The notes under the pieces were generated by a model. It ran no database searches. It was not told the origin of the DNA and was given only the letters and a program-made list of their open reading frames with translations. This document shows, in pieces, positions 8,720 to 64,000 of a DNA stretch of 64,000 nt; the first letter of the stretch is position 1, and every line of letters begins with the position of its first letter. The translations under genes were made by a program, and so were the position numbers. Source of the stretch: an uncultured Spirochaetales bacterium (GTDB lineage Bacteria > Spirochaetota > Spirochaetia > Sphaerochaetales > Sphaerochaetaceae); NCBI GenBank assembly GCA_902797395.1, contig CADBSO010000097.1:1-64000 (forward strand). The letters run 5' to 3'.

Positions 8720-8867
8720 TTTTGAATTGCGGCGTAAATTTGCTGCTTTTTCTCAAAAATGCATCACGCGGCGTACCAACGTGCGTGGCATTTGTCGGTT
8801 TCTTGAAGAATGCTCTAGTTCAAAATAGCTTTCGTATTCTTTTGAGATGATTTTTGAAAAAACCTTG
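8720..8867. repeat. Family A palindromic repeat, copy A4
   Basis: The right half (about 8800-8867) is clearly related to the right arms at 56.1 and 59.1-59.2 kb: TTGAAGAATGC, CTAGTTCAAAATAG, then TTTTTGAAAAAACC at the tip. The centre holds an inverted pair AAATGC..CACG / CGTG..GGCATTT. The left arm is degraded. The right tip supplies the -35 box of the following gene. Confidence 0.6.
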
Positions 8868-19307: not shown

Positions 19308-19532
19308 GGAGCGTTTTTTGGAAAACTCTGGAGTCCGAATCCGTTAAGGGCATCTCCAAAAACCTGCTGCTTGAAAATGCCTGCGGATTTTCGAGACGGA
19401 AAAACGGCAATTTTCCTTTCCGAGAAGAAAAGGAAAACAGGAATGCTGACCGTTCTCGAGGCTTTTTGCCGGTTTTATGGCCGGAAAGGTGTCAGGCAGG
19501 TTCGGACTCCGAGGTTTTTAGAAGTGCCCTTA
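19308..19532. repeat. Family B intergenic palindromic repeat, copy B2
   Basis: Fills most of the 340-bp gap between cdsA and pckG. GGAGTCCGAA (19330-19339) is matched perfectly by TTCGGACTCC (19501-19510). The outer tips GGAGCGTTTTTTGG and TTTTTAGAAGTGCCC are also complementary in part. The core contains CTTTCCGAGAAGAAAAGGAAAA and CGGTTTTATGGCCGGAA-type sub-hairpins. Confidence 0.6.
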
Positions 19533-30018: not shown

Positions 30019-30116
30019 ATTAGGGTTTTTCAAAATTCCTCTTTATTATCGTTTGTCGTTTTTGTTGGATCAAAACGATTTTCACTATTTCATTTTGACT
30101 TCAAGGGGTTGGAATA

Positions 30117-55966: not shown

Positions 55967-55994
55967 ATTATAAATATATTCGAGGTTTTTTCAA
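55967..55994 (-). promoter_or_regulatory. Promoter of tig, -35 inside repeat A1
   Basis: Minus strand: TTGAAA (complement of 55989-55994), 16-nt spacer, TATAAT (complement of 55967-55972). TTGAAA belongs to the terminal GAGTTTTGAAAAAACCTC of the repeat read outward. Transcript start near 55960, leader about 115 nt. Confidence 0.65.
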
Positions 55995-56150
55995 AACTCT
56001 TCCTTTCATGCTGTTCGCTCTTTTGAACTAGGACGCAAATCCGATGGATTCTCCTTGAAAACCGCAAAATGCATGCGGTATTTCAGTATTTGCGGTTTTC
56101 TTGAAAATGCCCTGGTTTAAAATAGGCTTCGCATCATTTTGAAATGGGTT
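55982..56150. repeat. Family A palindromic repeat, copy A1
   Basis: Left tip GAGGTTTTTTCAAAACTC, then CATGCTGTTCGCTCTTTTGA; right arm CCTGGTTTAAAATAGGCTTC then GCATCATTTTGAAATGGGTT, partial complements of each other. The centre contains AAAACCGCAAA/TTTGCGGTTTT. The right tip (TTTTGAAAAAACC) is missing and is replaced by repeat C1. The gene gap 55845-56548 consists of this element, C1, a unique stretch (56201-56370) and B6. Confidence 0.75.
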
Positions 56151-56200
56151 GGCTATGTCCGAATATGTTTATTCTGCCATATCCAGTCGCCGGATATGCG
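56151..56200. repeat. Family C 50-bp repeat, copy C1
   Basis: Starts GGCTATGTCCGAATA and ends with the hairpin CATATCC/GGATATG then CG. It matches 63906-63955 at 47 of 50 positions. It is directly joined to the right arm of A1. Confidence 0.8.
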
Positions 56201-57579: not shown

Positions 57580-57623
57580 GCTCTGCCGAATCGCTGCGTG
57601 CGGTTTGGCAGAGCATTTTTTTT
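57580..57623 (+). terminator. Rho-independent terminator
   Basis: GCTCTGCC / GGCAGAGC arms followed by A and eight T. A further small hairpin GGGTTTCCGAAACCC lies just upstream (57537-57551). Confidence 0.88.
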
Positions 57624-57670: not shown

Positions 57671-57839
57671 GAGGTTTGCTTAAATTTCTTTCTTTATGCT
57701 GCTTGCTTTTTCGAATCAGGCATAAACTTGCGGACTTACCTCAAAAACGCGTGGATGCGAATAGCGCTCGCGTTTTTCAGAGAGTATCCTGATTCGGAAT
57801 GGTCATCGCACTATTTTGAAACTGATTATGAAAAACCTT
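57671..57839. repeat. Family A palindromic repeat, copy A3 (diverged)
   Basis: Left GAGGTTTGCTTAAATTTC then ATGCTGCTTGCTTTTTCGA; right CCTGATTCGGAATGG then CATCGCACTATTTTGAAAC and the tip ATGAAAAACCTTG. The centre has an AAAACGCG..CGCGTTTT pair. It fills the rest of the 350-bp gap before asnA; the tip no longer holds a good -35. Confidence 0.55.
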
Positions 57840-58896: not shown

Positions 58897-58932
58897 GGGT
58901 CTTACGGCATTTTAGAAGCGTCCTAAAATTTG

Positions 58933-58980
58933 CCAGTTGCTTTCCGATGCGTTCTGCGTCGGAGGGCAACTGGTATTTTA
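58933..58980 (+). terminator. Hairpin terminator of asnA
   Basis: Outer stem CCAGTTGC / GCAACTGG, inner stem CCGATGC / GCGTCGG, then TATTTTAAA. The stem is long and the T-run modest. Confidence 0.7.
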
Positions 58981-58987
58981 AATTGCA

Positions 58988-59207
58988 GAGGCTTTTTCAA
59001 AACTCCTTCCTTCACGATGCTCGCTCTTTTGGACCAGAGCTTCATTTTTTCTCTTCTCAAGAAAAAATGCCAATGGATTCTTCGAGAAATGTTTTTTCTC
59101 GAGAAGAGAAAAAACACTAATACATACAGTATTCGCGATTTTTTCGAAGAATGCCCTGGTTCAAAATAGACTTCGCATCATTTTGAAATGAGTTTTGAAA
59201 AAACCTC
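58988..59207. repeat. Family A palindromic repeat, copy A2 (full length)
   Basis: 220 bp, both tips intact: GAGGCTTTTTCAAAACTC at the left and GAGTTTTGAAAAAACCTC at the right match as inverted repeats at 17 of 18 positions. The second arm pair is GATGCTCGCTCTTTTGGACC on the left and GGTTCAAAATAGACTTCGCA on the right. The centre has a 14-bp stem TTTTTTCTCTTCTC / GAGAAGAGAAAAAA. It lies between asnA and the flavoprotein gene. The remaining bases (59208-59279) contain a GGCGC..GCGCC hairpin. Confidence 0.8.
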
Positions 59208-59279
59208 TGTAAAAAATGGCGCTTTTGAACAACAGGGTTTCAGAGGCGCCAAAAAGGTGGTTTTCAGGGGGATAGCGAT

Positions 59280-63885: not shown

Positions 63886-63905
63886 GATGTTTTTTCAAAA
63901 CTCAT
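63886..63905. repeat. Family A tip, copy A5 (isolated left end)
   Basis: GATGTTTTTTCAAAACTCAT matches the left tip of family A (GAGGTTTTTTCAAAACTC). The rest of the element is absent; repeat C2 follows at once. Confidence 0.6.
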
Positions 63906-63955
63906 GGCTATGTCCGAATACATTTATTCTGCCATATCCAATCGCCGGATATGCG
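63906..63955. repeat. Family C 50-bp repeat, copy C2
   Basis: 47 of 50 positions identical to 56151-56200. Contains the hairpin CATATCC/GGATATG. Joined directly to a family A tip, as in copy C1. Confidence 0.8.
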
Positions 63956-64000
63956 CCGCACATGCGCGCTTTGGGTCGCAAAGCCATTTGGATAGGCACG

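Follow-up and report, generated by a model that had tools for sequence, protein, structure and literature searches.

BOX elements of Streptococcus pneumoniae are short interspersed repeats in which constant end modules surround variable middle modules; they carry terminal inverted repeats and target duplications, and an insertion-sequence partner has been proposed for them (PMC3049150). Prokaryotic MITEs are described in a 2024 review as elements of 50-500 bp that are normally intergenic and are moved in trans (PMC10969869), and REP sequences are palindromes of 20-40 bp (PMC3733652); these statements reflect excerpts of the three sources. The repeat that we call family A, found in a 64,000-nt stretch of DNA that was analysed as a whole (the window), is a new, species-restricted MITE family. 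We consider it very probable that family A is a non-autonomous DNA transposon that was recognised at its ends, in trans, by the DDE transposase of a same-ended insertion sequence, and that its cores were exchanged after or during its spread.

Family A is likened to BOX by its architecture alone and not by its sequence. MITEs made of ends plus a modular core have a precedent in BOX, but BOX varies in the number of tandem boxB units, whereas family A swaps alternative single modules at two positions (PMC3049150). Like family A, Correia and ERIC are small MITEs without a transposase, normally intergenic and present in tens to hundreds of copies, but they occur in other host groups, and the excerpts of the review, with which the comparison was made by description, give no module exchange at two positions for them (PMC10969869). 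Family A does not belong with the REP sequences, since its elements are 170-220 bp long and have 4-bp duplications. Thus, the original prediction that constant arms with exchangeable cores are unusual for REP or ERIC-like elements is right in that such cores are uncommon there, but modular cores are known from BOX. Our literature search returned no report of a Sphaerochaeta MITE, of the tip sequence, or of a Sphaerochaeta transposase with inverted repeats. The Sphaerochaetaceae therewith gain a well-documented MITE family with a likely transposase source, and the free combination of its core modules offers a way to measure, within a single genome, how very short dispersed repeats recombine.

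Copy A2 (Table 1) has the overall shape of a long imperfect palindrome. Its tips, GAGGCTTTTTCAAAACTC and GAGTTTTGAAAAAACCTC, are complementary at 17 of 18 positions, with one mismatch, and both this pairing and the length of the copy agree with what had been predicted. Folded as DNA, A2 reaches -48.1 kcal/mol, compared to a mean of -21.6 kcal/mol for shuffled sequences (z = -8.6; 0 of 200 shuffles as good), and the 4-bp flanks of A2 are a decayed target duplication. All of the further copies and the lone tip that had been predicted in the window were located. The window contains six matches to the tip pattern with at most three mismatches (0.08 expected), of which the one at 30021-30038, with three mismatches, is probably due to chance. 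The core hairpin AAAACCGCAAA/TTTGCGGTTTT, which had been taken for a different core in A1, is indeed present in the sequence, but we read it as one version of the short core that is common in the family and not as a module of its own.

Table 1. Positions of family A features in the window and of same-ended insertion sequences in related genomes
Feature	Position	Strand	Remarks
MITE copy A2, full length	58988..59207	+	220 bp; left core in its long hairpin form, right core hairpin hp1
A2 left terminal inverted repeat	58988..59005	+	tip-pattern matches (genome, window)
A2 right terminal inverted repeat	59190..59207	+	tip-pattern matches (genome, window)
A2 left 4-bp flank, TGCA	58984..58987	+	one mismatch to right flank
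A2 right 4-bp flank, TGTA	59208..59211	+	pairs with TGCA
A2 left core module, long form: hairpin ATTTTTTCT..AGAAAAAAT	59044..59068	+	
A2 right core module hp1: hairpin GTTTTTTCTC..GAGAAAAAAC	59091..59115	+	
MITE copy A1	55982..56150	+	right tip missing; another repeat family starts at 56151
Old, diverged full-length MITE copy	57671..57839	+	
Diverged MITE copy without left tip	8720..8867	+	
Lone MITE tip	63886..63903	+	interrupted by other repeat family from 63906 (same family as at 56151)
Insertion sequences with 18-bp ends GAGGTTTTTNCAAAACTC	Sphaerochaetaceae loci L113-L119, L155-L161		

The family is widespread in its host genome, as had been suspected. In this genome (G000; 2.01 Mb in 148 contigs, 87.5% complete and broken at repeats), we found 169 matches to the 18-base tip with at most three mismatches, compared to 5 for the reversed pattern, which served as a control. 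A profile made from 13 full copies and searched against the window plus 72 loci retrieved on the basis of tip matches (251,836 bases) gave 45 full-length copies of 170-220 bp and 41 partial hits, the latter counting pieces of one copy separately and including at least one look-alike (window 19374-19467). The copies are single and dispersed on many contigs in both orientations, and are not arrayed; several contigs stop inside a copy, as expected since repeats break the assembly. Deletion derivatives that keep both ends are frequent, and some of them have a target duplication. Thus, family A combines the features of a MITE: it is short, lacks a transposase of its own, and has 18-bp inverted tips, a 4-bp duplication and many dispersed copies; an autonomous element bounded by matching ends was found in other genomes of its family, though none in the host itself. 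The description of the element as MITE-like, with neither transposase nor coding content, is supported, and the cores carry no genes.

With the whole element as query, real copies were found in 1 of 61 genomes, the host (up to 13 best candidates scored per genome). Outside the host there were just matches of 24-33 bases, in 3 of 139 genomes (up to five best candidates scored per genome) and in 3 of 394 genomes (up to two). Since real copies are found in the host only, family A looks like a recent expansion within one lineage. Exact 25-base scans of viral contigs and genome contigs, collections that may omit the host's own records, gave no match. We also sought an empty site in the congeners at one locus; the only sizeable matches there, one per congener, were to the part of the locus that we take to be asnA-like, and no empty site was seen. 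The host genome measures 2.0 Mb, compared to about 1.2 Mb for its two congeners (G001 and G002), and repeat expansion may be part of this larger size.

We examined target duplications in the 32 copies with exact GAGG/CCTC ends and enough flank; the 13 of 45 full copies without such ends were excluded. A 4-bp duplication was exact in 14 of the 32, compared to a mean of 0.99 and a maximum of 6 in 5000 shuffled pairings. Lengths of 2 or 3 bp gave no excess, and lengths of 5 to 9 bp gave 0 to 2 exact cases each. The exact 4-bp duplication is absent in the other 18 copies, a few of which fit 5 or 6 bp better. Thus, the target-site duplications looked for do accompany the family, with a length of 4 bp. 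In half-elements, duplications were read by eye as GAAA/GAAA in contig C4 and ATTT in contig C98. The insertion sites of family A are at gene edges, between genes, since the longest open stretch across the joined flanks is short: its median was 487.5 nt for the 42 copies (of 45) that had 200 or more flanking bases on each side, compared to 1188 nt for 500 random window positions.

A search for the tips in 139 genomes of the same family revealed tip pairs 1.5-1.6 kb apart in several relatives. The DNA enclosed by these pairs encodes a transposase of 382-401 aa, with a match to Pfam DDE_Tnp_1 above the cut-off in 3 of 3 proteins. Against the NCBIfam IS1182 equivalog, three transposases scored 97.2, 75.4 and 78.7 bits, compared to a curated cut-off of 270, and IS5 models were likewise below their cut-off. 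Since these scores are far under the curated cut-off, the partner transposase is a relative of the IS1182/IS5 transposases and not an IS1182 member. The insertion sequences have 18-bp ends and a 4-bp target duplication in common with the MITE, but differ from it in their length of about 1.5-1.6 kb and in encoding the DDE transposase. In genome G123, all 11 tip-bounded elements examined have an exact 4-bp duplication (nine elements measure 1615-1624 bp, and the other two 1043 and 245 bp); among three elements from other genomes, those at L113 and L117 have none and that at L114 stops at a contig end.

The transposase (E 1e-10) is present in 25 of the 139 genomes, and its bearers in a collection of named genomes are Sphaerochaetaceae and other spirochaetes, such as 'Sphaerochaetaceae bacterium STD2_244' and Candidatus Ornithospirochaeta. 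At the same threshold, a transposase of the partner group was not found in the host, which is 87.5% complete, or in its two congeners. Thus, the transposase with matching tips that had been envisaged does exist, in 1.6-kb elements of relatives; the search of the host, whose genome is incomplete and broken at repeats, found no partner in the same cell. We considered and rejected one resident candidate, the only PF01609 match in the host (contig C126), an element that is presumably IS5-like; its ends, AAGGGCACTTCTA, fit another repeat family. The host genome also has six rve matches.

The 245-bp element of G123 (L140) has the same ends as the insertion sequences (one tip with one change) and the 4-bp duplication TAGA. 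It looks like a plain internal deletion of G123's resident insertion sequence and is an incipient MITE, alike to family A in its ends and 4-bp duplication, but without the palindromic core modules. In contrast, we found no similarity between the family A MITE and the partner insertion sequences past about 20 terminal bases. Because nothing but the ends is common to the MITE and the insertion sequences that we found, the MITE is not a plain internal deletion but consists of two ends that enclose unrelated palindromic DNA. We infer that the partner group probably mobilised family A: a DDE transposase encoded between the same 18-bp ends would have recognised the MITE ends in trans and inserted the MITE into AT-rich gaps between genes, making 4-bp target duplications.

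Core type in family A does not track the arms, and the cores are exchangeable. The left core of full copies has two forms, a short ATAAATC or a 30-base hairpin, and the right core has three, a short TCAAAAACCCCAA, hairpin hp1 or hairpin hp2. All six left/right combinations are present among full copies (20 short/short, 15 short/hp1, 4 short/hp2, 3 long/hp1, 2 long/short and 1 long/hp2), where a copy without a recognised hairpin was scored as short, as was therefore the diverged copy at 57671. When mapped onto an arm tree, the six core types required 20 changes, compared to 21.3 after label shuffling (53 of 200 shuffles needed no more changes); this tree has weak resolution, with stars on 2 of 42 inner branches, and random placement of cores on it is therefore partly expected. 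The arms differed by 0.132 in same-core pairs and by 0.143 in different-core pairs, in a test that excluded copy 57671. Cores differ in 25 of 40 nearest pairs, compared to 70% of all pairs, and the closest pair (C126:29468 and C11:38788) has arms 0.8% apart and different right cores. The right core type is slightly linked to arm distance (Mantel r = 0.09, p = 0.047), and left and right arm distances are weakly correlated (r = 0.23, p = 0.038). Thus, constant arms with exchangeable cores stand up quantitatively, but the variety of cores comes down to a few reassorting modules and variants that arose by deletion, and is not open-ended.

The strong hairpin fold of A2 and the location of copies between genes could also be read to mean that family A represents terminators of transcription or some other conserved structured RNA, dispersed by chance, which we regard as highly improbable. 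Strong terminator-like hairpins do occur at 57580-57614 and 58931-58975, but these lie apart from the copies that begin at 57671 and 58988, on their upstream side, and A2 itself contains a single weak 5-pair terminator-like site. Moreover, Rfam gave no match in the window copies (two tRNAs were the only matches in the window) or in the copy-bearing loci L002, L003, L011 and L028, and terminators do not carry 4-bp target duplications or insertion-sequence tips. In the 45-copy alignment we counted 15 double changes, compared to a shuffle mean of 6.7 and maximum of 13, a weak signal with a poor 19-pair consensus structure. We likewise give very little credence to an integron-like system, in which a site-specific recombinase swaps cassettes between constant arms. 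Such a system would account for constant arms, imperfect palindromes and exchangeable cores, and contig C4 has a 237-aa gene flanked by two half-elements; however, family A copies occur singly at scattered sites, in either orientation and with no arrays, their cores are gene-free, and the 4-bp duplication and the same-ended DDE transposase point to transposition. The C4 half-elements are opposite in orientation and one has its own duplication (GAAA/GAAA). We rejected the C4 gene as cargo carried between two tips, as it lies between two separate half-elements.

If family A is a mobile element, its cores might differ through repeated independent deletions and palindrome-templated changes, with no exchange between copies, an account that we find rather unlikely but worth weighing. 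Deletion derivatives do end at short repeats, such as AAAACC, and hp1 and hp2 have the loop CTTGAGAAAAG in common while their stems differ in sequence yet stay paired, which suggests palindrome-templated change. Against this, TCAAAAACCCCAAAT, a short module that cannot be derived from hp1 by simple deletion, is found in identical form alongside either left module, and repeated independent origin is therefore unlikely. We tentatively entertain, as a serious possibility, that dispersed copies actively exchange core modules, independently at each of the two positions, and that this outpaces the divergence of the arms; the family would then be a recombining population of palindromes in which hairpins change in sequence but keep their pairing. 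In the reading that we favour, copies exchanged core modules and lost pieces at short direct repeats after or during their spread, which left constant arms with reassorting cores; the swaps may have occurred through recombination between copies or through template switching within the palindrome.

We also considered an outward promoter as a general role of the tips, based on the left tip of A1, where TTGAAA is 16 bp from TATAAT. This was rejected: a good -10 at the A1 spacing is present in 2 of 80 tips, no more than at other offsets.

Two other repeats were noted. A second family, whose elements measure about 200 bp and end in the tips GGCTATGTCCGAA/TTCGGACATAGCC, is present in the window from 56151 onward and at 63906-64000, as well as in L052, L056, L009, L018, L029 and L064; copies of family A are interrupted or cut short by this second family, which is also found at several contig ends. 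A third repeat, with ends like GGGCGCTTCTAAAAACC, is present in the window at 19358, 46041 and 54106 and in L049, L055, L057, L058 and L094. The IS5-like element G000:C126:18009 has ends (AAGGGCACTTCTA..) that match this third repeat, and is therefore its likely partner. In addition, the transposase gene of this IS5-like element, at L094:1417-2442, is, by eye, much G+C-richer than its surroundings, which suggests that it arrived recently.
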